Part shown: positions 4,175 through 49,936 of the stretch, piece after piece
How positions within the stretch are numbered: the first letter of the stretch is position 1
Layout of the letters: every line of letters starts with the position of its first letter
DNA from: Macrolepiota albuminosa
Taxonomy: Eukaryota > Basidiomycota > Agaricomycetes > Agaricales > Agaricaceae
Assembly: GCA_027475525.1 (NCBI GenBank)
Contig: JAMWFC010000066.1
Span: 372,001 to 436,000 of the forward strand
Reading direction: 5' to 3'
DNA: 64,000 nucleotides
Translations under genes and position numbers: made by a program
Notes under the pieces: generated by a model
What the model was told of the DNA's origin: nothing
Database searches by the model: none
Seen by the model: the letters and a program-made list of their open reading frames with translations, nothing else

Positions 4175-4410
4175 TGTAGCGTAGTCCGCTATGTGGTGTT
4201 GGCCACATAGCTTTACTTACTGTAGTAGATATTATATTATATTTATTATAATAAATATAATATATTAATTACTTTACTATATATACGTACATATGTGCTG
4301 CTTATTAAGCAGCTTACTTTTGTGTATACTACATTGCCAATAGACCGGTCTGGTCTGATTCAGTGTTGTGTGTGCACACTAAGCTCTCTAACCTTCGTAA
4401 CTTCGTTACA
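4175..4410 (+). repeat. Gypsy-1 5' LTR
   Basis: 236 bp, TGTAGC...GTTACA. It contains a 9-bp hairpin (GCTATGTGG/CCACATAGC near 4189), a TATA-rich block at 4225-4285 that may be the promoter, and a GCTGCTT/AAGCAGC hairpin near 4297. Confidence 0.95.
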
Positions 4411-4423
4411 TTTTTTTGAATCC
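4411..4423 (+). promoter_or_regulatory. Putative primer-binding region of Gypsy-1 (possible self-priming)
   Basis: Directly after the 5' LTR lies TTTTTTTGAATCC, with no TGG that a tRNA 3' end would pair with. TGAATC here is complementary to GATTCA in the LTR (4357-4362). Gypsy-2 shows the matching pair TAAATC/GATTTA. Self-priming is known in Tf1-type elements. Its use here is inferred. Confidence 0.35.
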
Positions 4424-4517
4424 GCCAGCTAGGATCTATTGCCTAGCATCCGACGTCAGTCGTTGAGTTCGTTGACAGAACTCTATCAGCTTCTCGAGCT
4501 TCTTGCACAGCCACACC

Positions 4518-7500
4518 ATGCAAATTTCAAACAGGGGATCGATGAGTAATCCCATACCTGCAGCGCCCACTGACGGTGGGCGAAATGCCCACGACCTATG
4601 GGGAGACCCAGCAGACACCCAGGATGCGTCAGCGTCCAATGCGGGTCAGGTAAGACCCAAGGCTCGAGACCGAGGTCAGAGTGCCGACCTGGCCGGGAAT
4701 GAGAGCGAGGCCCGGAGAGCTGAAAGCTCACAGCAGGACGGTCCGCAACACCTCCAGGACAAGATGCCTGGAGGATTAACGCCCCCAGTTACGCAGCTGC
4801 CAGGAAGACCGCGACGGTCTAGCCGATTGGCTTCCAAAGGACCCCTGCAGGACGGCCGACAGTCAACCGGCGCCTATGGCGCCCCAGGAGACGCCGAGTC
4901 GTCAGTACAGACTGGGAGAGCCCTCCCTGCGAGCTGGAGCAGTGGGACCAGGCGGTCCACAGCGGGTCCAATGCCTTCTAAAGTAGCGGAAGCCCGCTTA
5001 GAAGAGGTACCGGAGGAGGCTGCAAGGCCTGAAGTATACCGTGCGGAAGATCGATTCCCGTGCACCCCAGCAGTGGAGGAAGCTCCGGAGGTTGTAGAGC
5101 TTCCAGAGGAGGTGATGGAGTCGTCAAGTGACGACGACGCCGGAGCAGAGGAACAGCGGCTGAAAACCGTGTACACCGTGCGCTTGCGGGTGTTCTGGGA
5201 CTTGCACCCAGAGGTGATGAAATACACCACCCAAGCGCGACTCGAGCGCTACGCGTCAGCCCATATAGTAGCACTTAGGCGACAAGGGCATGAAGTGCCC
5301 AATGTATTCAGTACGAAATATACTGATTTGATGGTGAGAGTGCTCACTATGGAGCTGCAAATGTATGTGCAGCGTAAGGCCACACGGCAATTGGGGGTCT
5401 CGACCCCCTGGAGCCACACGTCCGAGGAATGCTCGGCACGACGCAATCAAGACGTCGGAATCGAGCTAGTGGAGGCACTAGCACGGGCGCAAGAAGTGCC
5501 CGAAGTAAGACTGGTGAGTACTTTTTATACTCCAGCAGGACAAGGGTGGCGTGAGGAGCCCCCGCACATGCGTAACCAAGACCGTAGGACAGATATGTCA
5601 GGTCCGGATGGGCACGATAGTACTGTGCTCAAAGTGGAGAGCGAGGCATCTGTGATGCCGCGCGTGCCCATGGCCGATATGTTGAGCGACAGAGTCGCGT
5701 ATCAACGTATGCGCAATGGTGACCTCAGAACTAAGGGACAGTCCCTTATCAACGATCAGGGCATCGTATTCGAGAGCACTAAGCCCATTGACGAGATGCG
5801 TCATCAATTCGTCATGCAGGGTCAGGAGAATCAAGCTTCTCCAGGTCCAGGGCGGCGCAACAATCATGATCGAGGAGACTTCCTCGATCGAGATGGCACC
5901 ACAAGACGTGATGTCCCTGGTAATGGCCGGGATGACGGCCCTAGGTCGATTCCTCGAGACGAGGGCAATTATGCCCACAGTCGAGGAGGCTCGGGACGTC
6001 CTTCGCAAGGTGAACGGGGGAAGTCACTTCCCCATGCCGCTGATTTGGCGACTAGATCCCCAGGTCAGTGGGAAGCCATTCGAATGCATCGTGAAGCCAT
6101 GCATGATCGCCTGCATCGAGTAGTCGATGATGCCCTGGGCGTAACCCTACGGTTACCAGACGGAGTAAAGCTGCGTAAAGCAGACAGTAGGCACATTCGT
6201 GCCTATACAGGAGCATCCAAGTTCAGCGACCTGGAAGATTGGGTGATGGATGTATGCACCCATCTTGCCATGTGCTTATACGGAGGTGACCGTATGGAAC
6301 GAGAACGAATCTTCGTTCTGCCTGAGTTCTTGGCCGGAGAGGCCATGGGTTGGTTTCAACGGGCAGTACTGCACGTCAACCGTGTCCAATATGACTGGAC
6401 ATTTAAAGGAGTCCTTACAGGACTGTACAATCGATTCGTACACCCCTTAACGCTCCAGCGGGACTTCCAGTCCGCCAAGTACACCGAGAAGTTGGGAGTA
6501 CAAGGGTTCTATGATACCCTTAATGACCATGCCCAGAACATGGCAGTATACCCGGACGGGTATACAATGCTCGAAACGTTCTTGGATGGCATTCCAGCAG
6601 ATATGCGCCGCTATTTGATACGTGAGGACGGATTGTCCCCAGAAGTCAACGATGTGGAAGAATTTGTGGCATATGCCATCCGGTATGAGCAGTCTCTGAA
6701 GACTGCTAACCACTACGAACATCGGAGTGGACACAAAGGGGGACCCAGGCGACTACCGTCTGGTGGGACACCCTCATGGGGTCAGCATGTGGGGACCTTC
6801 CTGGCCAAAAAGACCGATTTGGACCGTGACCGCAACACGCAGTTTGTTGTACGCAGAACCCCTGCTGCAAACTGAGGGTGGAGCCACCCACGCCCAGAGC
6901 GGGCGCCGGACGGAGAACGTCCTAAACCAAGGCCGGACTTCAAGCCGGCCAACCCACCGGGGCAGTCGGGGACTTGTTTTGCGTGTGGCCAACCAGGCCA
7001 CTACGCTACCAACTGCCCTGCGAAGCCAGGACCCCCGAGGAAGGGGTATACACCCCGTGCCCACCTTCGAGCTGCACATACTGCAGCTGCGAGTGGGAGT
7101 GATGGAGACGTATCTGCCGATTCTGAGGCAGAGCACCCCACAAACGACCAGGAGCCCCCAGAGGAGGCATCGGGCGCCGAGCCCAAGAGTGTGGTCGTGG
7201 AGGGGGAGGAGTACGTCACAGTCGACGTATATGATGACGTCTACGACAATGAGTATTACAGTCGTGACAGCGACTCTGAGTGCCTAGCGGCGATGACAGA
7301 TTGGCCGTCCACAAATGATCCCAAACGGAATAACGTAGTTCAGATGAAGAAGGTGACCCTTCGTCATGCAGAGGGCACTTTGCAGCGCCCTACATTGAAA
7401 CGAGCAGACAAGGAGTGCCTGGTCTTGTATGTGGACGTAGACGGCCACAAGGCATGGACCCTATGGGACTCTGGGAGTACCACATCGGGCATAACGCCCC

Positions 7501-7844
7501 AGTTCGCCCATGTGTACGGAATATCCGTGCAGGAGTTGGATACGCCATTGGCGTTACAGCTGGGCACCGTAGGGAGCCGAGCCATGGTGCAGTATGGGAC
7601 AAATGTGAATGTCCAAACGCCGGGCTCACATAGCCGGGAATACATGGATGTAGCGAACTTCGATCGCTACGATATGATACTGGGAACACCATTCATGCGG
7701 CATAACAAAGTCATACTAGACTTTGACCAATGTCAGGTACTAGTGAATGGGAAAGTGATCCCAGCCAAACGAGCTACAGCAGACGACACTGATAATCGTC
7801 TGCGACGTCATCACACTACGGAGAAACGCAAGGACTCTCCATAA
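4518..7844 (+). pseudogene. Gypsy-1 gag and aspartic protease
   Basis: The first ATG is at 4518. About 480 residues of N-terminal extension come first. They include a helical block (about 5160-5500) that also occurs in Gypsy-2. Then comes the capsid-type gag domain (about 6190-6720, with FLDGIPADMRR and AYAIRYEQS). A zinc knuckle of the CX2CX4HX4C type (CFACGQPGHYATNC, 6975-7016) follows, then the protease with DSGST near 7468. There is one TGA at 6873 (CGA-to-TGA) just before the zinc knuckle. The frame ends at the TAA at 7842, which is discussed as a possible leaky stop. The products would form the particle core and process it. Confidence 0.9.
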
Positions 7845-7868
7845 CTTGGCCGGCGCAGAGTGCCGGCC
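7842..7868 (+). promoter_or_regulatory. Stop codon plus hairpin at protease-RT junction of Gypsy-1
   Basis: TAA (7842-7844) is followed three bases later by a perfect 7-bp stem, GGCCGGC (7848-7854) and GCCGGCC (7862-7868), with a 7-base loop. The frame stays open beyond. Gypsy-2 has TGA CTA and a 5-bp hairpin at the corresponding place. Readthrough is an inference. Confidence 0.4.
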
Positions 7869-10800
7869 GTGGAGGATGTGGAGGAGGAAGTGCAGGCTAT
7901 GCCTGGACTGAGTGCAGACCACAACGTGGTAATGATGAGCGAGGAGGAGTATCAAGCCTCCAAGAGGAGCAACGAGCGACTAATCGCTCCTGAAATTCGA
8001 GGTGCAAGGCCTCCAGACAAACGCCATCGAAAGATGAGACGACGGGAGGACTCAGTGGATGTATGTCCACCTACGTCCTTACGAGTCAAGTTGGAAGACT
8101 TGAAAGACAGCATCTGAGAGGCGGAAGCTTCAGTAGAGGGGGACACACGGTCCCTATGGGAGCAACCAGCTCCCCTGCTGGAGTACGACTGGGCATACGA
8201 CCCCCGAATGCCGCAAGAGTGGAACGAGCTGGTGGCAGCCACGTGTGTGCGAAATGCGCACCAGAGACGGATGACTGTCAACCCAGCGTATCGCCAGTCA
8301 GCCCCGGACGAGGTGTCTGTAGCGTACTCGCTTGTACGTGAGGGAAGAAGCCTCGTGGCTTATAAGACAGCGGCAGCGGGTGCTCCGCTGAGACTACATA
8401 TACCCAATGACAGTGTCAATCGAGTGCTCGCAATGTGCGAGCAGTATGCACCGCCGCCTCGGCCACCCTCAGAGACGGTGGAAGTACTTCCCCCGGTGCG
8501 TATGAAGGGGAAGCAGAAGGCGACAAGCCTTCGTGAGGAAGATATTCCTCGGTTGCGTCAGCAATGGCAAGAAGAATTTGCCGACATGGTCAATGGGACC
8601 AAGGAGGAGCTCCCGCCATGGCGGGAGGTGAACCATGAGATTAATCTCATAGACAAGAACAAGCAGTATAAGTACCACTTGCTGCGCTGCCCGCGCGCCC
8701 TCCAGGAGCAACTATGCGATAAAACTAATCGCTACTTGAATGCTCAATGGTGGTCCCCATGCACCACCGCTCAAGCTGCACCATTATTGTGCATCCTGAA
8801 GAAGGATGGAACCCTTCGAACAGCTCTTGATGCGCGTCAGCGCAATGACAATACCATAAAGGATGTGACTCCTTTACCAGATCAAGAGGTGATCTGGGAA
8901 GACATGGCTCAGGCGAAGTATCACTCGAAGATTGACCTTACTGACACCTACGAGCAGGTGCGCATTCGCACCGAGGACGTACCCAAGACCGTATTTGCGT
9001 TGATCATGGGTACATTCACGAGCAATATAATGCAGATTGGAGACTGCAATGCTCCAGCAACTTTCCAGAGGCTAATGACCTCTATCTTCCGAGACGTAAT
9101 AGGACGTTTCATGCACGTCTACTTAGATGACATATTCATCTACTTGGATACTATGGAGGAGCATGAGCAGCACCTCAGAGTCATATTCGAACGACTGCGC
9201 AAGTACAAGTTGTACTTGAAGTGGAAAAAATGTGAGCTCTACGCTCAGAGTATAGACTGCCTAGGGCATGTCATAGATGAGCGGGGTATCCACCCTGATC
9301 AGGACAAGCTCGATCGTATTTGGGAGTGGCACACGCCCCGAAACTACAATGACATCCAACGATTCGTTGGCCTTGTCAACTACATATCGAGCTTCTTGCC
9401 CGATGTCACAGCCTATACTGGGCCACTTATGGCCATGACGCAGAACGGATCACCATTCAATTGGAGGCCGTTGCACCAGCGGTGCTTCGAGATGGTCAAA
9501 CGGATCTGTACAAAGACTCCGGTGATTTGACCAATCGACCCTAGACGGGACGAGCCGATATGGCTCATTTGCGACGCGTTTAAGACAGGCGTCGGAGCCA
9601 TGTACGGCCAGGGAAGCAGCTGGCAGACGTGCCGCCCAGCAGGGTTCATGTCGAAGAAGTTCATGACGGCCCAGCAAAACTATGTGGTGCACGAGCTGGA
9701 GACTCTTGCCATACTCGAGGCCCTCCTCAAGTGGGAGGATAAGCTGATGGGATACCCCATCCACATCATAACGGACCACAAGGCCCTTGAGATCTTTAAA
9801 ACTCAGGTGAACTTGTCGCCGCGTCAGTGACGGTGGATAGACTACATGTTGAGATACCAGTTCGACATTACCTATGTTAAAGGTGAACTCAACAAAGTGG
9901 CAGACTGCTTGTCGCGCTACTTTGAGAGTGATGTAGTTGGGGAGGCTCATGAGCCTCATGAGTATGTGCAGGCAGACTGCTGCATAGACCCTGATGGAGA
10001 GGATTTACCTCTCCACCGATACCAGGAGCTCAGGGAGCATGTCCTGGAAGTACGCGCTATGCGTGATGATGAACGGAGGCGAAGCACTCACCTCAGAGAG
10101 CAGCATGAAGAGCGGGACGTAGCCGCCCAGTTGCTTAAGGAGCATGAAGCCATGGACCCAGCGTCCACTAGGGAGCACGAGCGCCACGATGTACCCGTTA
10201 TGCTGGCGGAGATGTTCAAAGGCGAATTGCCTTCATCCCAGCCTCCTAGCCTGGTCAATGACGACTTCCGGCAGGAGGTGGTGCAGGACTATGGCAATGA
10301 TTCTCTCTTCGCCGAGATAATCGCCAATCCTGACGACCATCCTTGGTTCAGGCATGAGCCTGGTGGACTCATCACGATGGAGAACCATCAAGGGGTGGCA
10401 GTGGTATGCCTCCCCCGTACGCGAACCATTGTTACGCGGGTCTTGGACCAGGCCCATGCCCTGGTGGGGCACTTTGGTGCTGCCCGGACGTTGGGCTACA
10501 TCCGGAGATGGTATTGGTGGCCACGTATGGCCCAAGAAGTGACTAAGTTTTGTGCATCATGCGCAGCGTGTCAGAGGGCAAAGTTGCCCCCTGGATCCCC
10601 TCTCGGGAAGCTACACCAGCTACCCATGCCGGTGAAATCTTGGGATTCGATTGGAATGGACTTTGTAGGTCCCTTTCCCGAGTCCAGAGGGTTCGATTAC
10701 CTCTGGGTGGTCATATGTCGCATGACAAGCATGGTGCACCTCATACCGGTGCGAACTACGCTGACGGCTAAGGAGCTGTCGTGGATCTACCTGAGGGAGA

Positions 10801-11747
10801 TTGTTAGGCTGCATGGGCTGCCTAGCACCATTGTGAGCGACCATGACTCAAAGTTCACGTCTCAATGGTGGAGAGAACTCCACAAACTGCTAGGAGTGCG
10901 ACTCCCCATGTCGACGTCCTTCCATCCTCAAATGGATGGGCAGACAGAGTGGGCTAACTGCAGTATAGGTCAGATTTTGAGGGCAGTTGTTCGCCCGGAC
11001 CAACGGGACTGGGTGGACTGGTGTCCACTCACTGAGTTCGCGATTAATGCGAGTATCTCGGATACCACAGGGTATGCGCCCTTTGAACTCAACGGAGGGT
11101 ACTTGCCCTCCATGCTGCACGAAGTTCGTGCTGATACAGTGGCTCACCGCGGAGTTGTCGAGTTCGCCAGGCAGGCCCTGGAGAACATCGCAGCGGCGCA
11201 TGACGCCATTATAGAGGCACAAGTCTTCCAGGCGAAAAACGCCAATCACCGTAGGCAAGCAGACCTGCCAATAGCTGTAGGAGCATTGGTATACCTATCA
11301 ACGCGTAATCTGAGGCTCCCAAAGGGACGGGCGAGTAAACTCTGCCCGAAATGGGTAGGCCCATACCGCGTCCTAGACGCAGAGCCAAGTACCTCCAACT
11401 ACGTGCTGGAGTTGCCTCTGGCATTACAGGAACGACACATCGTTCCTAAGTTTCATGTGTCGCTGTTGCGACCGTACAGCGCATCTCACGATGCGCTGTT
11501 CCCTAACAGGGCAACCCCGGGCCCCTATGATTTTGGGGCTCGAGACGATGACGAATGGTTTGTTGAGTGCATAATTGGGCACTGGTGGACTGAGCGTAAC
11601 ATGCTCGAGTTTGAAGTACGATGGTCCCTGGGGGACACAACATGGGAGCCACACTCCCATTGCTCCAAGTTAGCGGCACTTGACCGTTATTTGGAGTTGA
11701 AGGGCGTTAAGCGCCCACATCAATTAAGTAAGCGTGCCGGCGCTTAA
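7845..11747 (+). pseudogene. Gypsy-1 pol: RT, RNase H, integrase, chromodomain
   Basis: Same frame as gag-pro. An RT-N-terminal linker (7845-8560) is followed by RT with YLDD near 9120, RNase H (about 9540-9830), the integrase zinc finger (VGHFG, CASCAACQ near 10460-10580), the DDE core (GMDFVG, VSDHDSKF, and a Glu in the QTEWAN region) and a C-terminal chromodomain (FEVRWSLGDTTWEP, about 11610-11650). Stops at 8115, 9528 and 9828 are TGA. Gypsy-2 has Trp and Arg at the last two places, so they arose by G-to-A or C-to-T. The chromodomain would steer insertion to marked chromatin. No 77-bp duplication lies in this part. Confidence 0.93.
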
Positions 11748-12391
11748 TTTGATCGGCAGTGCCGATCGCGGCTTGGCTGAGTTGGTCAGCAGCTGTGGCT
11801 GAAACACGTCTTAAAAGGCAAAATTTCTTTTTCGCTTTTTTCCCCAACCATGGACAACATGCCCGTGGACTTGAGTGAACAGCAGCAGCAGCAGTTTGAG
11901 AGTACGCCGTCGGTCTTACCGTCGGCTGAAGGGGGGGGGGCAGATGGCTTCCCCGCTGACCCAAAATGCATCCCAGTGGAGACAATCGCAACCAGCTGTG
12001 GGCTTCCCACAGCAGCAGCAACTACCAGCGGTGGGCTACCTGCTGCAGCAGCCGGTGATCAGTGGCGATCCATCACTTCAAACCATGCAGGGCAACTTCA
12101 TGCCCCAGAACGCACCTGTGGGCAGCTATCAGCCCCAACAACCAGTACCGGGCACTTATGCGCCACATCACACCAAGGGCCAATCCCAGCAACAGGCCTA
12201 CGGGGGGCTAGTCAGCCCCCAAGCAGCGTCGGCATGGAGGCAGCTTGCCCCCGTACCGGCAACAGGGCAACTGGGGACACATCCTTTTCCCCAGTTTATG
12301 GCCCCGGCGCACTACCCTGGGATGGGTGGTGTGCCCGTAATGATGCCGTACCCCCCGGCTTGGATGGGGGCTTGGGGCGCAATGCCCCAGT

Positions 12392-12545
12392 ACAGCGACT
12401 CGCATGAGTCGCAAGCCAAGGGAGGCCGGTCGATTTCCCTGTTGACCACAGCACCAATTGACAATCTAACAGCGACTCGCATGAGTCGCAAGCCAAGGGA
12501 GGCCGGTCGATTTCCCTGTTGACCACAGCACCAATTGACAATCTA
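12392..12545. repeat. Exact 77-bp tandem duplication (likely assembly overlap)
   Basis: 12392-12468 is repeated at 12469-12545 in Gypsy-1 ORF3. Confidence 0.95.
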
Positions 12546-12564
12546 GAGAGACGCAAAGCATCCC

Positions 12565-12774
12565 TCGTGCAGGCCACCGTGGCCATTGAGAGTACAGAAA
12601 CTCTCAATACAGAACGGAGCATCAGTTCATCAGCTGATGCGCCGACAGAGAGCTTGGCCAAGCTCTCCTTCGTGCAGGCCACCGTGGCCATTGAGAGTAC
12701 AGAAACTCTCAATACAGAACGGAGCATCAGTTCATCGGCTGATGCGCCGACGGAGAGCTTGGCCAAGCTCTCCT
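12565..12774 (+). repeat. Imperfect 105-bp tandem repeat in Gypsy-1 ORF3
   Basis: Two units of 105 bp (35 codons, frame kept) coding for a Ser/Thr/Glu-rich segment. They differ at two or more A/G sites, so unlike the 77-bp copies this is a real repeat. Confidence 0.8.
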
Positions 12775-12910
12775 TGCTACAGCGGCTGGAAATGCCGCAC
12801 CAATCTGAGCCCAGCTCGGAAGAAGAGTCGCGTGCTTGGCCAAGCTCTCCTTGCTACAGCGGCTGGAAATGCCGCACCAATCTGAGCCCAGCTCGGAAGA
12901 AGAGTCGTGT
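12757..12910. repeat. Exact 77-bp tandem duplication (likely assembly overlap)
   Basis: 12757-12833 is repeated at 12834-12910 in Gypsy-1 ORF3. Confidence 0.95.
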
Positions 12911-13093
12911 CCTTGACGTGACAAAGGAAAAGCATGGGCTGTCGAGCCCACTCACAGCCAGGACTTAGTCCTGGCTACCCTTCTCCAACGTCTGGGAGAT
13001 AATGGGTATGATGTCCAGCAAAAGGGCACGTCGGCAAGGAGTGGAGGACGCACCCTCCCGCTCGATTAAGTTGAGCGTTGCTGCCCCCAGCCG

Positions 13094-13247
13094 GGAGGCT
13101 GGCCTAGGATGGGACATCCTTCCCTATGAAGATGTCCCTGCTCCAGCCGCCCCCCGGCTTATCCAGCGCCGGAGGCTGGCCTAGGATGGGACATCCTTCC
13201 CTATGAAGATGTCCCTGCTCCAGCCGCCCCCCGGCTTATCCAGCGCC
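13094..13247. repeat. Exact 77-bp tandem duplication (likely assembly overlap)
   Basis: 13094-13170 is repeated at 13171-13247 in Gypsy-1 ORF3. Collapsing it joins the frames on either side. Confidence 0.95.
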
Positions 13248-13368
13248 TCGCAAGCGGCGCGTCTGAGGTCGCGTCTTCGCGACCAGTATCCGTGGTTTCC
13301 ACCACATACTCTGGGGAGCAGAGTTCCAGGGGCGTGAGCACACGCCCCACCGAGGCTAAGGCCTCACT

Positions 13369-13522
13369 ACCCCGAAAGGATCGTCGGGGTAAGCAACCGG
13401 AAGGGCGCGCCTACGTCAACGTGCACTTCCCCGAGGATGCCCTGAACCCCGAAAGGATCGTCGGGGTAAGCAACCGGAAGGGCGCGCCTACGTCAACGTG
13501 CACTTCCCCGAGGATGCCCTGA
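13369..13522. repeat. Exact 77-bp tandem duplication (likely assembly overlap)
   Basis: 13369-13445 is repeated at 13446-13522 in Gypsy-1 ORF3. Collapsing it joins the frames on either side. Confidence 0.95.
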
Positions 13523-15762: not shown

Positions 15763-15767
15763 CTTGG

Positions 15768-18068: not shown

Positions 18069-18150
18069 AAGCATTGATTCATTGACAGATAAGGTGTACA
18101 CATGGTTACTAATGCCTGGCTTGTGCGCGATGCACCATCTAGCGTCCAAG

Positions 18151-38498: not shown

Positions 38499-38512
38499 TA
38501 CCCCCCAATGAG
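38499..38512 (-). promoter_or_regulatory. Polypurine tract of Gypsy-2
   Basis: Minus-strand ATTGGGGGGTA abuts the 3' LTR. Confidence 0.6.
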
Positions 38513-39018: not shown

Positions 39019-41784
39019 TTAGTGCGACATTAATCGCTGAAGCGGTGGTGGTAAGCGTACCCTGCTCTGCCGTGCGTGACAGGAGATTGACCCGGCGTCT
39101 GCTGCTGGCAGGTCATGCGCTGCCGAGCGTTTTAGGAGGTTGACCCGATTCGGGTCCATGCCAATCAAGTAATAGAGGCCGTTGGCCTCAGGGTTTTCCG
39201 GGAGCTTGCTCTCCTCGTGGTGCTTGAACATCAGACGATAGTGATCGTCTTCAGTCATCTCCCGCCATCCATCCCATTGCGGGATTGCGGCGGGGGTGCC
39301 ATACGTGGAGAGGCGCTCCATGCGCTCGTCATCGACCTGCTTAAAGATGTCCATAGACATCGTGGGGGAATGGAACTGCTGTTCCAGGAAGACCACGCCG
39401 TACGTGTACGCGTGGTCCACCCATTCCAGCGGAATCTGGTTGTGTAAAAGGACGCGTAACACGTCGTCGTCGGAGAAGTTCCGTGCATGGTCGTCGGGCA
39501 CGTGAACTTGGTGAATTTCGAGCTGCGGCCCACGTTGGGGCTCAAATGGCTGCTCGGGGAACATGGCGTCATACGAGGCAATCGCCTCTCGATAAAGCCC
39601 TGGACGGGCCACGACGAGGGTCATGCGCCGTACGATCACCGGCTTGGCTGCGCTGTTAGCGCACAATGCTCGACATAGGGCGAACCCAAAGAGGGTCCGC
39701 CAGTGCATGCGATAGGCATGATCCACGGCGATACCTTGATAGGTATTTTCCAACCCCGGTCGGCCAAAGACCAGCGCGTACTGCGCCAGTTGGTCAAGGT
39801 CGAACGGGGTGGCTGGATCCTGAGCACGCATTACGCACAACGCCGTGGTGCCATCGTCTTTTGTGCGCAAAAAGCGCCCCGGAATGTGTCGTCGCTCGAC
39901 AAGAGCGAGGTCGTCAGGGCCCTGCATCGGGTTGACGAGTTCTTGATACCTGGGCTCCTTCATCAGGAGCTGCATGGTTCGATCATGCAGAGCCTCCACT
40001 GTTTGCTGCACAAACATCTGGAGCTCTGTGATCAACATATACGCGACGATTCTGTCGCGACGCGGAACGTGTACATTGGCGTAATACTTGTAGAGCCGGT
40101 CCAGCTCTAGAGGAGTGCGGGGAAGACCGCGTGGGGCGTGCTTATACACAATCGTGCCCGGGATGTGGGCAGGATGGCCAGAGGAGTATTCATATGACGC
40201 CGCTCTATTGGCGTCAGCTCCCATCAACACCGTATTCATGGCATACGAATAATAGGTGCAATGGCTGAGTGCTCCTCTAAAGCACGAGTTCATTCGCTCG
40301 ATATCGAGCGGACCCCACACCTTCACCCCCAAGCCATCGGGGATCCTCCCCAAACATTCATCCTCGGCCCTCGACTTCTGGGCCTTTAGCTCCTTGGCGT
40401 GAATCGCCTTCTTCTTTGCAATGCGCTTATTGCGCGCTACTCGTTGGAATCGGTCTGCAGCCAATTCCCCCTCCTCCCCGTCCTCCTCCTGCTCCAAGCT
40501 TGACTCTCCATAGTCGCTCTCGTTGGACAGGGATGGTACTGGTTTTTTGCCTTTATCAGGCCTAGTCTTCCCCCTTGAGGTTGCCACCAGACCATCATAC
40601 TGCTCCAGCGTGCGAGGGTCTGGGGTCAAAACAACCATGGGATACTTTGCTGGAGGGGCCGGTACAAACACCGGCAACATGAACAACATCTGGACTTCTC
40701 CCGCTTGTGCGGGAATGCCAGCAGGAAAGAGTATAACCTCCAATTTGGAGGCATCGAGAGGTGGCTTGCGGCCGCGGCGTTGACAAGACGGCCCCGACTT
40801 GGTCAGGGCGGACGATTCTGGTTGTGGCTGAGCCACCGGAGGGGCAGGCGCATTTCGTGCCAGAGTATTCCCTCCAGGCCCAGCGCAAGGAGTAACAGTA
40901 ATGGGCGCTCTTGGCGCCACAGCGATGGGTTTGGACCCCCTAGGTGGGGCCCGAGATGATGCGGCTTCCCGCTGACCCAAGGACAGATCTGCCAAGGGTT
41001 CACTGACAGCAGCCAGCGACTCTGAAGAGGCCTGCGGGCCCGACTCGGGTAGCCGTGATGATGAAGCTACGGGCTGAGGAGGCTGCTCATGGTGCGCGAA
41101 TTGCGCTTCCGACGGCATCCTTGCCTGTGGAGGAGCGACCGGTCAACTGGGCTGATATCTTGCCCTCTTGACCTCAGCGGTCGATTCCTCACTCGTGGCA
41201 ATTTTGCGCTTAGAAGCGCGTTCAATCTGCTCCAGCGCTGCGACGCGCTGCCTCTTCATCAGCTCGATCTGGTCGAGCAGCCCCTCCATTACCATTACGG
41301 CCAAGCTGTCCTGCAGAAAGGACGCAGTTGCAGGGACTGGCTGTCCCGCTGCTTCCAGTCTGCCCAACAGCACGTCTGACCCAGCTACACTCTGCGCTTG
41401 TGGCGCAGGCTCCCCATATGACTCTTCCATGGGCCGGTGCGCCCATGGTACTGACGGCGGCCCCGTCACCACACCCGCATACGTCAGATACGACGCAGTT
41501 GGACGTGACGATGGCTCCTGATAATAGCGCTCACGGCGCGTGCTGTCCTCCGGGCGCCCATAGCACCCTTCATCATCGACCTCCATCTCTTGCGAGTGGA
41601 GAGGCGTCTGATACGGAAGCGGCTCATCACGGCCTGGATATGCCACCGCTGACTGAAACTGGCTTGCCGCCGGATATGGCGGCTGCCTCGGAAACTGAGT
41701 TGAAACTTGTATATTCGGGGGTCTCCCCCCTCTACTAGAGCCTTGCTGGCTCTGATCAGTATTTTGCGGCCCCCAATAGGCCAT
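39019..41784 (-). pseudogene. Gypsy-2 ORF3: extra conserved ORF, one stop
   Basis: A single frame of 922 codons from the ATG at 41784 (MAYWGPQNT) to 39019, with only one TGA at 41143 (CGA-to-TGA). The N-terminal third is Pro/Gln/Ser-rich and low in order, with a basic helix (IERASKRKIATSE). The middle holds a Lys-rich helical stretch (KRIAKKKAIHAKELKAQKS). The C-terminal 450 residues carry the blocks shared with Gypsy-1 ORF3: GRIPDGLGV, MHWRTLFGFAL, LLHNQIP, DHAYTYGV and QWDGWRE. Domain and position are conserved in two separate families, which suggests a useful product. The function is unknown to me. Confidence 0.75.
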
Positions 41785-43562
41785 TTTCGCTAAACACGTA
41801 GACTACGTGTATTGGGACTCGAGAAAAGAGGGAAAAAAAAACAATCTCCCAACTCCGCTAGTGGTGTAAACAACCACAAATACATGCCACCCGGCCTCTC
41901 ACCGGCGATCATAGTCGCATAAATGGTCACAAACAGTAGCCACAATTAGTAGCCACCCGGTTATTCACTGGCCATCAAAGTGGACTTCGTCCACATTCCA
42001 CCACCCCACGCGCATTATGCGCGTTTTGCTAGCTGTTGAGGGTGTTTCACGCCCTGCAACTCTAGGTACCTGTCCATCGCTGCAAGGTCTCTGCAGTTCA
42101 CGAGTGGTTCCCAGGTAGTATCACCTAAGCTCCACCTCACCTCGAATTCGAGGTTTCCTTTTGCCCACCAGTGACCGATGAGGTCATCTACAAACCACTC
42201 CTGGTCATTGCCAGTTCCAAAGTCATACGGCTCTGGCGTTGCGCGATTAGGAAATAGCGCATCACTACTGGCCATATACGGTCGCAATAGCGACACGTGA
42301 AACTTGGGCACTATCCTGCGCGCTTGCAGCGCCTGGGGTAGTTCCAGCACGTAGTTAGACGTGCTCGGTTCTGCCTCAAGGACCTTATATGGTCCAATCC
42401 ACTTCGGACACAGCTTGCTCGCCCTGCCTTTCGGCAAGTTCAAGTTCTTCGTTGAAAGGTACACTAGGCTCCCTTTCTCGATATCCGGCTCATCACGTCT
42501 GCGATTATTTGCATGTTTGGTTTGCCACACACGCGATTCTATAATTGCGTCATGGGCATCTGCCAGATTCCTTAGCGCGTTGCGCGCAAACTGCTTGACT
42601 CCCACATGAATAACTTCGTCCGTACGAAGTTCACGAATCATGGATGGCATGTAGCCATTGTTGAGTTCAAAGGGTGAGTACCCTGTGGTTTCCGATATAC
42701 TCGCGTTTATCGCGAATTCTACGAGTGGACATCTATCCACCCAGTCCTTCTGATCAGGACGTACAAATGCTCGCAAGATTTGCGTGATATTTCTATTCGC
42801 ACGTTCCGTTTGACCATCCGTTTGCAGATGAAACGATGTCGACATGAGCAGCTTTGCTCCTAGCAGCTTGTGCAACTCCTTCCACCATTTGGAAGTAAAC
42901 TTAGCATCTCGATCGCTCACGATCGAGCTGGGCAGTCCATGGAGACGTACTATCTCCTTGAGATAGATCCACGACAAGTCTGACGCGGTCATGGTGGTTC
43001 TCACTGGAATGAGATGGACCATACTGGTCATTCTGCAGATCACTACCCACAGGTAGTTAAAGCCTTTCGACTCGGGGAACGGACCTATAAAGTCCATCCC
43101 AATCAAATCCCAAGGTTTGACCGGTATGGGTAGCGAATGCAGCTTTCCCGGTGGCTTCAAAGTCGATACTTTCGACTGTTGACATAGCTCGCATGTCGAG
43201 CAGAATTGGCTCGTCTCTTTGGCCATTTGTGGCCACCAGTACCAGCGTCGCACATAGTCCAGCGTTTTCTGAGTTCCGAAGTGGCCCACTACTCTATGGG
43301 CCTGGTCCAGGATAGTCGTAATCAACGACCTCTCCCGGGGAATGCAGATGACTTTGGACCCCGTGGGTCTGGTAAGGTAGACGAGCTGCTGCTCCATCCT
43401 GAAGCGCGGATGCGCTTGGATATTGTTCAGAATCTCTACGAAGAGATTATCATCCTTGTATCCTTGCTGGATACGTGTGCGGAATTGCGCATTGCCTAAG
43501 TCGGCCGGTGCAGGTGTATGGTCCTGTGACTCCAGCGCTTGCTGGAGCGTCATATCAGTACC

Positions 43563-43716
43563 TCTCATAGGCACCTCTTGCCTCGTCTCTTCACGTGGCT
43601 GAGGGGCCTCATGGTCCACTAGCACCTGAGCTTCGATATTCTCATAGGCACCTCTTGCCTCGTCTCTTCACGTGGCTGAGGGGCCTCATGGTCCACTAGC
43701 ACCTGAGCTTCGATAT
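43563..43716. repeat. Exact 77-bp tandem duplication (likely assembly overlap)
   Basis: 43563-43639 is repeated at 43640-43716 in Gypsy-2 pol. Confidence 0.95.
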
Positions 43717-44042
43717 TGCGAGTCTCTCGCTGCTCCTGCAGTTGCTTACTGCGACGTGTTTCCTGCGCTCGCATGGCGTGTAACTCAACCCTATGTTCCC
43801 TGATTTCATGGAATCGATGCAGAGGCAAATCCTCGCCCTCTGGGTCAATACGTTTGTCCGCCTGGACATAGTCATGCGCGTCATGGACGTCATCTCAAGT
43901 ATCACTCTCGAAATATCGAGATAGGCAATCCGCCACTTTGTTCAATTCACCTTTTACATAGGTGATGTCGAACTGGTACCGCGACATGTAGTCTATCCAG
44001 CGACGTTGTCGCGGAGACAGGTGCACCTGAGTCTTGAAGAAC

Positions 44043-44196
44043 TCTAGTGCTTTGTGATCCATGATAATATGGATCTTATATCCCATCAGTTTATCCTCCC
44101 ACTTTAGGAGGGCTTCCAGTCTAGTGCTTTGTGATCCATGATAATATGGATCTTATATCCCATCAGTTTATCCTCCCACTTTAGGAGGGCTTCCAG
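44043..44196. repeat. Exact 77-bp tandem duplication (likely assembly overlap)
   Basis: 44043-44119 is repeated at 44120-44196 in the RNase H part of Gypsy-2. Confidence 0.95.
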
Positions 44197-45115
44197 TATT
44201 GCGAGTATTTCTAACTCGTGCACAGCATAATTCTGCTGAGCAGCAGTGAATTTACGGGACATAAATCCCGCTGGTCGGCAGGTCTGCCATGTTTTACCCT
44301 GGCCAAACATGGCCCCAACCCCAGTCTTTGACACATCACAGATGAGCCAGATGGGCTCGTCGATGCGTGGGTCAATTGGCCAGATGACCGGCGTTTTCGC
44401 GCATATGTGCTTAATCATCTCAAAACACCGCTGATGCAGCGGTCTCCAATGAAACGGTGACCCATTCTGGGTCATGGCCATAAGTGGCCCAGTGTATGCA
44501 GTGATGTCTGGCAAGAAATTGCCAATATAGTTCACCAGTCCGACAAATCGTTGGATATCATTATATGTGCGTGGAGTACGCCACTCTCGGATTCGGTCGA
44601 GCTTATCCGTATCAGGATGAATGCCCTTCTCGTCAATGACGTGACCGAGGCAATCTATACTCGTTGCGTACAACTCGCACTTCTTCCATTTGAGATAGAG
44701 GCTGGCCTTCCGTAGTCGTTCAAATACGACTCGTAGGTGCTGCTCATGCTCCTCAATGGAGTCAGAAAATATGAATATATCGTCTAAATAGACGTGCATA
44801 AACTTCCCGATTACATCTCGGAAGATTGAGGTCATTAACCTCTGAAATGTCGCCGGTGCATTACAATCACCAATCTGCATGATGTTACTCACGAACGTCC
44901 CCATCAGGGACGAGAACAGTGTCTTCGGTATATCCTTTTCGTGGATGCGAACCTGTTCGTACGTGTCTGTGAGGTCGATTTTCGACCGATACTTCGCTGT
45001 CGCGACATCTTCTTGTATCACTTCCTGATCTGGAAGAGGTGTTACATCCTTGACGGTATTATCATTGCGCTGTCGCGCATCCAATGCCGTACGTAACATT
45101 CCATCCTTCTTGGGG

Positions 45116-45269
45116 ATACAAAGCAATGGTGCAGCTTGCACCGCTGGTCGTGGTTCCCACCACTTCGCGTTTATGTATCTATTTGTCTTTTCATACAAAG
45201 CAATGGTGCAGCTTGCACCGCTGGTCGTGGTTCCCACCACTTCGCGTTTATGTATCTATTTGTCTTTTC
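45116..45269. repeat. Exact 77-bp tandem duplication (likely assembly overlap)
   Basis: 45116-45192 is repeated at 45193-45269 at the start of the RT of Gypsy-2. Confidence 0.95.
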
Positions 45270-46125
45270 ACGAAGTTGATCCTGAAGTGCTCGCGGGCAG
45301 CGAGGCAAATGATACTTGTACTGCTTGTTATTGTCAATGAGGTTGATCTCATGATTAACCTCCCGCCACGGAGGAAGCTCCTCCTTCGTTCCATTGACGA
45401 TATCAGCGAACTCCCGTTGCCATTGCTGGCGCAGTCGAGGGATATCCTCCTCTGTAAGGCTCAAAGCATTGCCTTTTCCTTTGGCTACGCGTGCTCTACG
45501 TGGTTGAACCTTTGGTTCAAATCACTCCCGTAAGGCACGTACGTGCTCCTCTGTGAGGTCTCCCAGGTTCAACCTTACAACCGGTTGTTTCCTTGTTGTA
45601 CTCGCCGACGACTGCACACTTCTCGCCTTCAGCGAGAATCCGTCAAATACGATATCCGATGTTTCGGAGATCTCGTCCTCTCGTGCGTGACGGTACACTT
45701 CTCCCGTCTGGGTCGCTTGCCCACTTCCCATAGCCTGCGTCACCATTGACGCTACCAACTCATTCCACTCCCATGGCATTCGTGGGTCATACGCCCATTG
45801 CACTCCTGGCCGAGGCACTGGTCGATCCATTAGCGACCTAGTGCTACCCACAGTTCCCATCGTACTGTATACCTCGTCCTTGACGAGATCCTCAACCTTC
45901 ACTCAAGAGCTAGTCAGCTGGCATTCCAGCGACTCCACCACGTGTTTACTACGCTCATTCTTGCACTGCACAGCCTGTTTAGGCTTTCCATTGGTACACC
46001 CAGTCACATCCGGGTGCTTCCCCTTCTTCAGAGTTCCTTGAAACTCTTCCTCAGTCATCAGTATAGCCGGCGAATCAGCCGGCAGGCTTTTCGGTGGGGC
46101 CTGTTCGTCCTCCACCTCCTGTACA

Positions 46126-46151
46126 GTCGCTCTCCTGCGACCATCTAGTCA
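46126..46151 (-). promoter_or_regulatory. TGA-CTA stop context plus hairpin at protease-RT junction of Gypsy-2
   Basis: The minus strand reads TGA CTA G, the classic leaky-stop context in other systems. It is followed by GTCGC-AGGAGA-GCGAC (46126-46141), a 5-bp stem. The frame is open and homologous to Gypsy-1 on both sides of the stop. Confidence 0.45.
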
Positions 46152-49100
46152 GTTGCGCTCATCACGCCGCTTTTCAGTTGCGCGATAGCGCCTCAAACGA
46201 CCATCTGTATCGTTCAACACCACTTTCTCCGCCTTCAAAGGCGTACCATTCACAACGACCATGTCGTTCACGAAATCCAGCGACACCTTGTTCTTACGCA
46301 TGAACGGCGTACCGATAATCATGTCATAGCGATCAAAATTCGCTATATCCACGTATTCTTTCGTCGACGTTCCTGACATCTTTATTCTCACCTCCGCGCC
46401 AAACTGCACCATAGCGCGACTCCCCACAGTCCCCAGCTGGAGCATCAAGGGCTCCTCCAGTTCATGAACGCGAATCGCATTGACGTGAGCAAACTGGGGC
46501 GTAATGCCCGTAGTGGTACTCCCGGAGTCCCACAACGTCCATGCCAGATGTCCATTGACATCAACATACGTGACCAGGCACTCCTTCTCCTCGGGAGTAT
46601 AGCGTGGCCGCTGCAACTTATTAGTTGCCTTCTGCAGGGTTACGCGTCTCATTCGGACGCGCTGATCTCCACGGCACTCCGTCAGTGCAAACAGGTGTTC
46701 CCCCTCGTCATCACAAGCATAGTAGTCGCTGTCGTACACATCCACTGCGACGTATTCGTTGCCATCAATCTGGATGCTCTCAGCGTCATCCACTTCCGAC
46801 CCATCAGCCTCTACCTGCGGTTCTTCCTCCGCTTCCTCAATGATCTCGTCATCCTCGTCGTCACTGACGACATCGCTAGGGGCCGCAGCCGTATGGGCCG
46901 CTCGGATGTGTGCCTTAGGTGGGGCAGGACACTCCTTAGTGAAATGCCCGCTCCTGCCACAGTTATAGCACGCTGAGGGATCCCCGGCAGGCCTTCTCTG
47001 GGCCGCTCCTGGAGTTCCAGCGGTTTTGCCCGCTATACGCGGTACAGGCGCCACCATTCCTCTCGGTGCTACTTGATTCTGACCCGAAAAGGGTCGACTA
47101 TCCTTTGCTGGCAACTGTCCAGCAGGCTTCGATCGAGGCCGTTGGCCTCCAGGAATTGTCTTACAAACAACGAATCGCGGATTGCGATTATTCTCCATAT
47201 CTGTCCGTTTGGCCAGGAAGGTTCCCACCTTCACTGCCTGACGGTTCACTGGTCCTTGGCGTGAACTACGCTGCTCATAATGGTTTGCAGTCCGTGTCGA
47301 CTGCTCATAACGGATGGCATACGCCAAGAATTCGGTCACAGTATTGACCTCCGGAGACAAATTATCGTCACGTATCAACGCTCTCCTCATGTCTGCGGGT
47401 ATTCCGTCCAGGAATGTCTCGCGGATAGTGTATTCATCTGGATAGACGGCCATATTCTGTGCATGACCCACCAGGTCATCATAAAAGGTCTGGATGCCAG
47501 TCTTAGCGTCATACACTGCCTTTCTAAAGGCATCACGAGCTTCCTGCATCATAGCAGCGTTGACGAACCGATTATACAGTCCTATCAGGACCTCTTTAAA
47601 TGTCCAGTGCAATTTGTCACGATTAATGTGGAGAACATGGCGACGGAACCAATTCCGAGCCTCTCCTTCCATAAATTCGTGTAGCACGAATATCCTTTCC
47701 TGGTCCATGTCGTCTCCACCATAGCAGCAGGCTGCGAGGTGGTAGCACACGTCCATGGCCCAGTCCTCCAGTTGAGAGAACCTATGTCCTCCAGCGTACG
47801 CACGTATGTGCTTACCATCGGATTTACGGGGGCTTACCCCAGCAGGGAACTTAAATCTGACTCCAAGGGAGTCATCCACCAGACAAGTGAGGCGGTCATG
47901 CATATGATCCATATGGATCCTGACCGCTTCATTCATTCCCGGCGTAGTTTCATGCAAATCATGAGGTGCGGGCATCAAAAATGCCCGAGGACTGCGAAAC
48001 AGGTGCTCATTGGCCACTCTTTCCGGCCGTGTGGTGGGCTGTTGCCTCACTTGTTGCTCTGCTGGTAATCCACCAGCCTGCCTGCCACTATCACGACGAT
48101 TATTATCATCCTGATCGTTATTTCTACGATCACGATCTCCACCGTCGTGATTGCGACGACTTGGCTCCCTCTGTTCGTAGTGACCACTACTGTCGTCACT
48201 ACCACCCGGATCTCTGTCCGGTTCAGCAGTCCGAGCCGCGAATTGTCGCCGCATGTCATCGACAGGCGTTACGCCCTCACGCCCTTCAAAGACTACCCCC
48301 TGGTCATCAATGAACGACTCACCATGATCGCGCAAGTCCTGATTGCATATCCTTTGGTAATTGACGTGTTCATTCCAGTTGTCCACTAGGTGGACACGTC
48401 GCACTACGCGTTGTGGTCGCGTTCGCTCCTCAAGAATGTGGACTTCGTCCACCTCTTCCTTGATTGTAACTTGCTTACGAGGTGTCTTAACCTCCTGCAC
48501 TGCAAGTGGTGCCTCTGGCTCTGCCGGAGTCGTCGTTACAGTCTCCACCTCAGACAATGCCTGCTGAGGCACTCCGCTAACAATGCGTTGATGGTTTGCA
48601 GCGTTCTGACGCCAAACGTAGTCTTGCTGAGACTCGTTAGCCTGACGAGGCACATTGAGCAATTCCATCGCGTCCGCGATTAATGGCGCTTGTCTGTGCA
48701 CACTCATCTCACATTCTACTGAGTCGGCTGGAGTAGCCGTTGAGACTGCTGACCCTCGTGCCGCTTTGCGCTTAAGGTATTCCACTACTTCGAGTTCGAA
48801 GATGCGCACAAACAATTTGATATATTCACTCGAATCTGCACGGGGTACATCGTGGCTCCTAGCCGCCAGCAACTGTAAGTGCTTCACTACATAAAGCTGA
48901 AGACGCTTTTGCGTCGATTCCTTCACGACCGCCGGATATCGGTCCAATACTAGCTGCAACTGGATAGATAAGGTCGAATGTGACCTTTTGCTTTCCTCAT
49001 CATCTGAGGACTCCAACTCGGACTCTAAGTCCATAACTCTCCTGAGGCCGTCATGCCTCACTTGCGGCTGTTTGCCGGCTCGTCGGTGCAACTCTGGACT

Positions 49101-49649
49101 TCCAGGTGCTGTTAACGCCTTGTCCAACCTTACGACATTGTCGTCTTCCCTACTGACCACTATTGCTGGTCCTTGCTTCTGTCCTGGTGTTGTCAACGAC
49201 GACGGTCCCGGTTCAGTGGCAGCATTGGCCACATATTCCAAATGCCGTTCCGTAGGTGCAGTCCGGAATGGGGTGCTATGCGCAAACACGCTGTCTTGTG
49301 CCATTTCCGAGTACTGGGTAACATCCAGTTGACTCTCAGAGGGAGCTGAAGAGCTCTCGGGCAATACCGGATACATCAGTGAAGGCATTTGGCTCACTGG
49401 CAGCGACACTCCTGAGACCGCGGATCTATCTCCTGGTTTTTCACCAGGTCGTACAATGGACATCATCCGTGATACGGATAGCCCACCAGGCATTCCATAG
49501 CTCGCACTGACATCGCGAGGGGTCTTTTTGTCCCGCTTTGGCGGAGGTTGGTATGCTGACGCAGATTGCGTCCTCACCACCTGAAGCACAGGTAAGTCAC
49601 CTGCGTCTGCAGCTGGGAACGGAGGATCCGGATCAAGAGAGCCAATCAT
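46149..49649 (-). CDS. Gypsy-2 gag and aspartic protease, intact frame
   Basis: An open frame of 1166 codons from ATG (MIGSLDPDPP) to TGA at 46149-46151. The N-terminal extension of about 600 residues includes the helical block shared with Gypsy-1 (QLQLVLDRYPAVVKESTQKR). A basic Arg/Asp-rich linker leads to the gag capsid domain (FLDGIPADMRR, AYAIRYEQS), the zinc knuckle CYNCGRSGHFTKEC (about 46930-46970), an acidic spacer, and the protease with DSGST (about 46520). No internal stop is present, so this part could still be expressed. The stop at the end sits where Gypsy-1 also has one. Confidence 0.92.
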   Translation of the reverse strand: MIGSLDPDPPFPAADAGDLPVLQVVRTQSASAYQPPPKRDKKTPRDVSASYGMPGGLSVSRMMSIVRPGEKPGDRSAVSGVSLPVSQMPSLMYPVLPESSSAPSESQLDVTQYSEMAQDSVFAHSTPFRTAPTERHLEYVANAATEPGPSSLTTPGQKQGPAIVVSREDDNVVRLDKALTAPGSPELHRRAGKQPQVRHDGLRRVMDLESELESSDDEESKRSHSTLSIQLQLVLDRYPAVVKESTQKRLQLYVVKHLQLLAARSHDVPRADSSEYIKLFVRIFELEVVEYLKRKAARGSAVSTATPADSVECEMSVHRQAPLIADAMELLNVPRQANESQQDYVWRQNAANHQRIVSGVPQQALSEVETVTTTPAEPEAPLAVQEVKTPRKQVTIKEEVDEVHILEERTRPQRVVRRVHLVDNWNEHVNYQRICNQDLRDHGESFIDDQGVVFEGREGVTPVDDMRRQFAARTAEPDRDPGGSDDSSGHYEQREPSRRNHDGGDRDRRNNDQDDNNRRDSGRQAGGLPAEQQVRQQPTTRPERVANEHLFRSPRAFLMPAPHDLHETTPGMNEAVRIHMDHMHDRLTCLVDDSLGVRFKFPAGVSPRKSDGKHIRAYAGGHRFSQLEDWAMDVCYHLAACCYGGDDMDQERIFVLHEFMEGEARNWFRRHVLHINRDKLHWTFKEVLIGLYNRFVNAAMMQEARDAFRKAVYDAKTGIQTFYDDLVGHAQNMAVYPDEYTIRETFLDGIPADMRRALIRDDNLSPEVNTVTEFLAYAIRYEQSTRTANHYEQRSSRQGPVNRQAVKVGTFLAKRTDMENNRNPRFVVCKTIPGGQRPRSKPAGQLPAKDSRPFSGQNQVAPRGMVAPVPRIAGKTAGTPGAAQRRPAGDPSACYNCGRSGHFTKECPAPPKAHIRAAHTAAAPSDVVSDDEDDEIIEEAEEEPQVEADGSEVDDAESIQIDGNEYVAVDVYDSDYYACDDEGEHLFALTECRGDQRVRMRRVTLQKATNKLQRPRYTPEEKECLVTYVDVNGHLAWTLWDSGSTTTGITPQFAHVNAIRVHELEEPLMLQLGTVGSRAMVQFGAEVRIKMSGTSTKEYVDIANFDRYDMIIGTPFMRKNKVSLDFVNDMVVVNGTPLKAEKVVLNDTDGRLRRYRATEKRRDERN

Positions 49650-49747
49650 GGAAGCACGTTTTCAGTGTGATGCCAACAGAGAATCGAGAGGTTTTGATGA
49701 GAGTTGCCTAGTCGGTAACAAGCCTAGAGTCTAAAGCCGATAGCAGA

Positions 49748-49760
49748 AGATTTAAAAAAA
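49748..49760 (-). promoter_or_regulatory. Putative primer-binding region of Gypsy-2
   Basis: On the minus strand TTTTTTTAAATC follows the LTR. TAAATC pairs with GATTTA in the LTR (plus coordinates 49811-49816). This mirrors the Gypsy-1 arrangement with one compensating change on each side. Confidence 0.35.
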
Positions 49761-49936
49761 TGTAACCAGAGTTATGAGTTAGAACTATCTTGTGTGTATC
49801 ACACAAGTGCTAAATCAGACCGCAGTATCAGATTGACTAGTACTTAGAGTGAAAACAAGATGTTATCTTACGTAATACTCTACTAATTGATTATAGCGTC
49901 GTTGACGCTGATGGTAATACGGATGACTCCGTTACA
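49761..49936 (-). repeat. Gypsy-2 5' LTR (minus strand)
   Basis: 176 bp with TGTAAC/GTTACA ends. It contains several perfect hairpins, such as CTTGTGTG/CACACAAG and AGCGTC/GACGCT. Confidence 0.95.

Follow-up and report, generated by a model that had tools for sequence, protein, structure and literature searches.

Two Ty3/gypsy retrotransposons in a 64,000-nucleotide stretch of the Macrolepiota albuminosa genome (contig JAMWFC010000066.1, positions 372,001 to 436,000; hereafter the window, numbered from its first letter) are filled with short, perfect hairpins throughout their long terminal repeats (LTRs) and coding regions. The first element, Gypsy-1, occupies 4175-15762 on the plus strand and the second, Gypsy-2, occupies 38323-49936 on the minus strand. 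Our favored explanation, to which we give a probability of roughly 40%, is that DNA-level copying in the course of the element's own replication brought the two arms of these hairpins into perfect match. Direct footprints of such copying were not found beyond controls; arm copying is thus favored rather than shown, and selection stays a serious rival.

Stems were counted as perfect Watson-Crick pairings with loops of 0-10 bases, and expectations were drawn from dinucleotide shuffles, unless stated otherwise. Gypsy-1 contained 143, 77, 41, and 18 stems of at least 6, 7, 8, and 9 bp, respectively (25.8, 6.6, 1.8, and 0.4 in shuffles); Gypsy-2 contained 113, 37, 11, and 1 (24.7, 6.2, 1.6, and 0.4 in shuffles). 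Two adjoining hairpins within the reverse transcriptase (RT) frame of Gypsy-1 at 8610-8650, each with a stem of 8 bp and with loops of 2 and 0 bases, illustrate the pattern. Under synonymous-codon shuffles, which preserve both protein and codon usage, the coding parts tested still exceeded expectation 3- to 5-fold. In Gypsy-1 the counts were 30 vs. 7.2 in gag, 10 vs. 2.5 in nucleocapsid-protease (NC-PR), 16 vs. 3.3 in RT, 15 vs. 5.0 in integrase (IN), and 9 vs. 2.2 in part of the 3′ region; in Gypsy-2 they were 37 vs. 9.4 in gag-PR, 12 vs. 3.1 in RT, 14 vs. 4.0 in IN, and 19 vs. 6.2 in the third open reading frame (ORF3). The original prediction, made from the letters of the window, had described perfect inverted repeats throughout LTRs, coding regions, and ORF3, and this excess was confirmed against both types of shuffle. 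All 13 of the stems that it quoted were found in place, although one of them, GCGGTCA at 47892-47927, has arms separated by a 22-base loop and falls outside the short-loop class. Its spacing of one stem every 30-60 bases was too dense: hairpins of at least 6 bp occur on average once per 90 bases in Gypsy-1 and once per 107 bases in Gypsy-2, with random-like spacing in both.

The excess consists mainly of inverted complements at short spacing. Among pairs of 7-mers separated by gaps of 0-10 bases in Gypsy-1, 140 were inverted complements (8.1 expected), compared with 25 direct (8.3), 12 mirror (7.4), and 34 complement pairs (6.8). The excess extended to loops of about 16 bases in Gypsy-1 and 10 in Gypsy-2. 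In Gypsy-1 the density was highest in non-coding sequence, at 29 per kb in the LTR and 14 in the leader, and lowest in RT-IN (8.8); the 5′ LTR alone held 7 stems of at least 6 bp in 240 bases, and hairpins with stems of at least 5 bp covered 60% of it, as compared to 23% in shuffles. The Gypsy-1 region at 11745-15432 held 46 stems of at least 6 bp where 8.4 were expected. Gypsy-2 had no such gradient (LTR 11, gag-PR 10.5, and RT-IN 9.1 per kb, with none in the 100 bases of its leader). Chance, base composition, codon usage, or an error of assembly is almost certainly not the source of these stems. The assembly does carry 77-bp duplications, some of them within the elements, but masking the second copies changed little (137, 73, 40, and 17 stems in Gypsy-1; 111, 36, 11, and 1 in Gypsy-2), and 20 further Gypsy-1 copies agree with the copy in the window. 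The dinucleotide and synonymous shuffles, neither of which reproduced the observed counts, exclude chance, composition, and codon usage.

The excess marks one clade. It was present in all 20 of the further Gypsy-1 copies, each with 67-99 stems in 5.9-8.3 kb. In a survey of 23 stretches picked by coordinate (L031-L053), it appeared in three: L045, a copy of Gypsy-2; L052, a copy of Gypsy-1; and L032, a third family with at most 79% identity to Gypsy-1 or Gypsy-2 over short stretches, which carries 49 stems in 4 kb (7.9 expected) and in which the excess extends to loops of 17-24 bases (16 vs. 5.4). It was absent from the other 20, where the largest deviations were 12 vs. 6.4 at 6 bp (L036) and 4 vs. 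0.8 at 8 bp (L044). Two loci of another gypsy lineage, with RT sequences 36-37% identical by translated match, had no excess (L029, 5 vs. 7.6; L030, 2 vs. 6.8). As had been claimed for host genes, shuffle counts revealed no excess in host stretches or in GFAT exons. The Copia elements had likewise been set apart from the Gypsy elements; the one that served as an internal contrast (57347-61085, minus strand, characterized by stem counts, Pfam, and mismatch profile) indeed has no stems of at least 8 bp, but it has a mild excess at 6 bp or more (19 vs. 8.1). Restriction of the excess to the clade of Gypsy-1, Gypsy-2, and L032 suggests that its source lies in the RT or life cycle of these elements and not in the host.

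A force that acts on RNA should favor G.U pairs, and we therefore scored 6-bp stems with one interior mismatch as observed over expected for each type of mismatch. In Gypsy-1, perfect stems were enriched 9.6-fold, with G.T, A.C, and other mismatches at 1.76-, 1.75-, and 1.74-fold; in Gypsy-2, perfect stems were enriched 5.4-fold, with mismatches in the same order at 1.36-, 1.20-, and 1.29-fold. The controls were the RNA phages MS2 (perfect 3.2-fold; 2.6, 2.4, and 1.4) and Qbeta (5.7-fold; 2.7, 2.3, and 1.3) and the 16S and 23S RNAs of E. coli (1.7-fold; 1.9, 1.3, and 1.0). Mismatches followed no thermodynamic order (T.T 5.4-fold and G.G 1.7-fold when pooled), and G-C pairs were not preferred, their fractions in internal stems being 0.591, 0.536, and 0.521 vs. 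0.606, 0.545, and 0.562 in shuffles. A deficit of G-C pairs in our first count arose partly from the A+T-rich LTR, disappeared in internal Gypsy-1, and was discarded.

Folding energy, computed on the first 8.0-8.2 kb of Gypsy-1 and Gypsy-2 and on 4 kb of L032, revealed excess stability on both strands alike. The departures from shuffles on the sense and antisense strands were -22.2 and -20.9% in Gypsy-1, -16.2 and -17.6% in Gypsy-2, and -23.6 and -23.1% in L032; they were near 0 in the other gypsy lineage and the host, and -8.8 and -10.0% in Copia. The original prediction had named selection for RNA structure as a possible cause of the stems. We disfavor such selection in Gypsy-1 and Gypsy-2 because G.T is no commoner than other mismatches, both strands are equally stabilized, and the two elements share no stem pairs in pol; the G.T result in L032 goes the other way. 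A genomic RNA with ordered structure along its whole length, compacted by selection for packaging or protection as in many plus-strand RNA viruses, is accordingly quite unlikely as a general explanation, and for Gypsy-1 and Gypsy-2 the wobble test nearly refutes it. It would fit a predicted folding energy 16-24% below shuffles over the length examined, a stem density like or above that of Qbeta (9.6-12.2 vs. 8.7 per kb), A-rich loops, and the mismatches of L032. It fits poorly with the even enrichment of mismatches in Gypsy-1 and Gypsy-2, which contrasts with MS2 and Qbeta, with the equal stabilization of sense and antisense, and with the scarcity of GNRA among four-base loops (1 of 45 and 3 of 42).

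Some asymmetries were also observed within the arms. The 5′ arms are purine-rich in Gypsy-1 (G-C 332 vs. C-G 216; A-T 229 vs. T-A 194) and in L032 (113 vs. 76; 93 vs. 68), and they lean the opposite way in Gypsy-2 (196 vs. 220; 135 vs. 163); pairs within a stem are not independent in these counts. Mismatches in the Copia element lean to G.T (1.62-fold vs. 1.11-fold for other types), unlike those of Gypsy-1 and Gypsy-2, in small numbers.

The stems are not fixed structures. Where pol of Gypsy-1 and Gypsy-2 aligns at 69% identity, the 23 stems of the former and 28 of the latter have no pairs in common, and it is density that is maintained instead. A 10-bp stem with a loop of 4 in the integrase frame of Gypsy-1 (11476-11499, plus strand), for example, has no counterpart pairing in the aligned stretch of Gypsy-2. 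Comparison of these two elements for paired substitutions, as had been proposed, gave no clear excess: double changes at paired sites kept the pairing in 7 of 12 and 8 of 14 cases, not clearly above chance. Among 1173 sites aligned in Gypsy-1, Gypsy-2, and L032, with expectations from random placement, 381 changes private to one family included 61 stem gains (18.6 expected) and 11 losses (53.7 expected). Private changes of Gypsy-1, matched for codon position, gave 19 gains vs. 4.4 and 4 losses vs. 17.6. Avoidance of loss is the firmer part of this result; gains were counted per site in the present sequence, so that one stem could contribute a gain for each of its changes. There were 13 stems with a single private change, close to the 11 losses, and density may thus be steady.

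Variants among the 21 Gypsy-1 copies look near neutral for stems under a null matched for neighboring bases, with 101 gains among 1456 variants (92.0 expected) and 186 losses (203.6 expected). The ratio of gains to losses differs sharply between fixed changes (61:11) and polymorphic ones (101:186; Fisher p = 1.8e-14). Most derived letters among the copies (2059 of 2764) are C-to-T or G-to-A, and C-to-T variants were found at 744 of 1091 CG sites (Gypsy-1 copies, with L009-L028 as the further copies), as expected of decay after insertion; so strong a decay at CG resembles that of methylated DNA. In the nine youngest copies, a group defined after earlier per-copy results were known, 57 private variants other than C-to-T gave 7 gains (3.8 expected) and 3 losses (8.7 expected).

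These copies also bear on whether a host-wide or post-insertion process, such as gene conversion, repair of extruded hairpins, or deamination at CG sites, builds stems in genomic copies, which we consider very unlikely. C-to-T change dominates the copy variants and sometimes completes a stem, as did 11 of the 108 C-to-T changes private to the copy in the window. In one region of 741 variants, where the null took account of codon position and base alone, gains exceeded expectation (46 vs. 27.4, with losses at 104 vs. 104.6). We put that excess down to unmatched CG context; once neighbors were matched the variants were neutral and stem building in genomic copies was unsupported, and the other gypsy loci and 20 of the 23 survey stretches have no excess.

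A more serious possibility, if still a doubtful one, is that active elements are selected for hairpin density and not for hairpin position. The hairpins might act, for example, in cDNA while it is single-stranded or by extruding as cruciforms, settings in which G.T disrupts pairing no less than other mismatches do. DNA hairpins predict both blindness to wobble and symmetry of the strands. Private changes break stems about five-fold less often than expected while copy variants are near neutral, and both arms had changed in 13 of the 17 stems with multiple changes. Such selection sits less easily with the lack of preference for stable pairs or stable mismatches, and losses were not purged from variants common to at least four copies (27 vs. 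28.0); we know of no benefit that dense DNA hairpins would bring to an LTR element. Most copy variants, moreover, arose after insertion, so that their difference from the private changes also fits a mutation bias of the replication cycle.

Under arm copying, the mechanism that we favor, the sequence of events in its simplest form might be as follows. The nascent strand would fold back briefly on itself, and the RT, or the polymerase that finishes the second strand, would copy the opposite arm and then return, so that the arms of a near-palindrome became exact copies at the DNA level during the replication cycle. One event would alter one or a few bases, in either arm. Purifying selection on the proteins would then filter the products, and hairpins would settle where the protein allows, differently in each family. 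After insertion, copies would cease to gain or keep stems and would decay, with C-to-T mutation of CG sites as the main route. Arm perfecting explains the blindness to wobble, the symmetry of the strands, the lack of order among mismatches, the short loops, the limits of the clade, and the turnover of positions. We suggest, more tentatively, that reverse transcription in this clade may recast the element's own sequence as perfect hairpins, with arm copying during cDNA synthesis so frequent, relative to other substitution, that palindrome perfecting is balanced by selection on protein. Deviation from conserved amino acids was not raised in stem-coding stretches at integrase columns conserved at 70% or more (Gypsy-2, 1 of 35 in stems vs. 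23 of 229 outside; Gypsy-1, 3 of 35 vs. 33 of 265).

The original prediction had already raised the idea of template switching that perfects near-palindromes. The results on wobble and strands fit it, as does the excess of perfect arms with short spacers; the footprints that it should leave were not seen beyond controls in 21 Gypsy-1 copies. Several observations weigh against arm copying. Among 262 clustered changes, 9 moved towards a nearby reverse complement and 14 away from it, in a test that covered the 21 Gypsy-1 copies. A search of 634 hairpin loci for loop inversion turned up 3 copy pairs, all at a single LTR site, compared with 2 copy pairs for a reversed-loop control that covered the gag-pol part. 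Of the 17 stems with multiple changes, 4 had all of them on a single arm, close to the number expected by chance (5.5), and thus one-step copying of a whole arm was not seen. A strong replication bias should be apparent in the 93 variants other than C-to-T that are common to at least four copies, and these gave 8 gains (6.0 expected) and 11 losses (11.8 expected). Stems were gained by 9 of 51 nonsynonymous and 10 of 59 synonymous changes in Gypsy-1, which does not discriminate. In L032, perfect stems were enriched 12.7-fold and G.T stood at 2.8-fold (37 vs. 13.2), above A.C (1.75-fold) and other mismatches (1.32-fold). We give this little weight, since L032 is represented by one copy and G-C pairs become G.T through C-to-T decay, though these points do not account for it. 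Finally, loops are A-rich on the sense strand (0.33 in Gypsy-1 and 0.36 in Gypsy-2 vs. 0.24 and 0.25), and RNA loops are often A-rich. Stepwise correction of single bases in either arm would escape the footprint tests; copying of whole arms would not. The sole candidate footprint is a possible inversion of a 4-base loop at 4222-4223, TGTA vs. TACA, that separates copies L015, L016, and L017 from L020.

Both elements have the paired LTRs and 5-base target duplications of Ty3/gypsy elements, and their limits were set by repeat families, flanks, and LTR comparison. Gypsy-1 is flanked by CTTGG (4170-4174 and 15763-15767), and its LTRs (5′, 4175-4410, the part densest in stems; 3′, 15527-15762) differ at 3 positions over 240 bases. 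On the same plus strand, a frame at 4476-7844 encodes gag, a zinc knuckle, and an aspartyl protease (Pfam RVP_2, zf-CCHC) and is interrupted by a stop at 6873-6875; RT and integrase frames follow at 8118-11747 (RVT_1, Integrase_H2C2, rve, SH3_Tf2-1). The 3′ region at 11748-15432, which the original prediction called ORF3, is broken by 77-bp duplications. Gypsy-2 is flanked by CAAGC (38318-38322 and 49937-49941), with 3 differences between LTRs over 176 bases. On the minus strand, Pfam matches place its gag, zinc knuckle, and protease at 46149-49661 and its RT, RNase H, and integrase at 42015-45255; ORF3 (707 amino acids) lies at 39019-41142. Domains run in the order PR-RT-RNase H-integrase in Gypsy-2; PR, RT, and IN were matched in Gypsy-1, where no Pfam match to RNase H was found in the frames scanned. 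Neither third reading frame (39019-41142, minus; 11748-15432, plus) had a Pfam match, at a threshold of 1e-3 for that of Gypsy-2; parts of the two pair by tblastx at 31-47% identity. Both elements carry the Tf2-1-like C-terminal SH3 domain of integrase (PF24626) that is typical of the Tf1/sushi type. No chromodomain (PF00385) was found at 1e-3 in the scanned frames of either element, although broken frames could hide a damaged one. By eye, no tRNA-type TGG primer site was seen after the 5′ LTR. Near this site, each element has a 6-base complement to its LTR at matching places (TGAATC in Gypsy-1, 4412-4423 with 4357-4362; TAAATC in Gypsy-2, minus strand), with one base covarying between the elements. 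This hints at self-priming, but each complement is expected by chance in 37% of shuffles.

In the genome (100 Mb, 129 contigs), a first look at the two RT pieces gave 968 and 1039 candidate copies, and all of the 40 scored per family were at least 96% identical. The Gypsy-2 integrase has 1053 protein relatives; among the best 120 of 1053, those with names belong to agaricomycetes (Hypsizygus, Agaricus, Armillaria, Meripilus, Peniophora), with Hypsizygus marmoreus, Agaricus bisporus, and Armillaria ostoyae among the species. Two scans of viral contigs found no relatives.

Elsewhere in the assembly, exact or near-exact tandem duplications of 77 bases, almost the sole period observed, number 15 in the 64 kb of the window (at 1642, 3659, 12392, 12757, 13094, 13369, 14808, 15433, 18151, 43563, 44043, 45116, 59637, 60901, and 61210); a further 73 were counted in other stretches totaling 268 kb. 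They break reading frames, those of the two gypsy elements among them, and look like an assembly artefact in which overlapping pieces were joined at k = 77. A frame resembling DDE superfamily transposases (Pfam DDE_3) lies at 881-1483.

A genome dense in hairpins is usually taken as a sign that RNA structure is under selection. With RNA phages as controls, the wobble test needs no more than sequence to tell such selection from arm matching at the DNA level, and it places two families clearly on the DNA side. If arm copying is correct, it is a directional mutation process specific to these elements that yields structure without selection for structure; structure in retroelements could then be a by-product of mutation, and the correction of quasi-palindromes, so far known from rare events, could shape whole genomes. 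If selection is responsible instead, LTR elements must put DNA hairpins to some use not yet recognized. Either outcome is testable in this genome, which gave about a thousand candidate copies for each of the two families found in the window.

A literature search by title and opening of abstract, with subscription journals mostly outside it, found, among the matches listed, no LTR retrotransposon reported to carry perfect hairpins along its whole length, which is weak evidence of absence. Genome-scale ordered structure places dense local hairpins throughout the coding sequence of RNA viruses, and the elements described here resemble these in having hairpins at a density like that of Qbeta; G.U is tolerated by the RNA phages but not by Gypsy-1 or Gypsy-2. 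Fungal Ty3/gypsy elements of the Tf1/Tf2 type and their relatives share the SH3_Tf2-1 and integrase domains, with protein relatives in agaricomycetes; Gypsy-1 and Gypsy-2 differ in having a third reading frame and no chromodomain in the frames scanned. Yeast Ty3, also a Ty3/gypsy element, has structured regions in its coding sequence, but the portion of that study used here describes a well-folded core spanning about a fifth of the RNA, with a few palindromes, and not perfect hairpins in excess along the whole element (PMC11381356); this comparison is by description and not by stem count. Template switching has been proposed to create and maintain RNA hairpins, producing perfect stems and compensatory changes by copying of the opposite arm, as we suggest here (PMC8794818). 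The cases covered there are conserved RNA genes with stems in fixed places; here, places differ between families and no known RNA is served. In yeast, quasi-palindromes are homogenized by template switching between short inverted repeats (PMC8604942, PMC3820800). As proposed for our elements, imperfect inverted repeats are perfected, short spacers are favored, coding DNA is hit, and amino acids are changed. The yeast events, as far as the relevant sections of those two papers describe them, are rare, occur gene by gene, leave multi-base clusters and spacer inversions, and are ascribed to host DNA synthesis and not to a reverse transcriptase, whereas here a clade of 11.6-kb elements is saturated and such footprints were not found. 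Template switching and the homogenization of inverted repeats are nevertheless the closest known ideas to the process that we propose.

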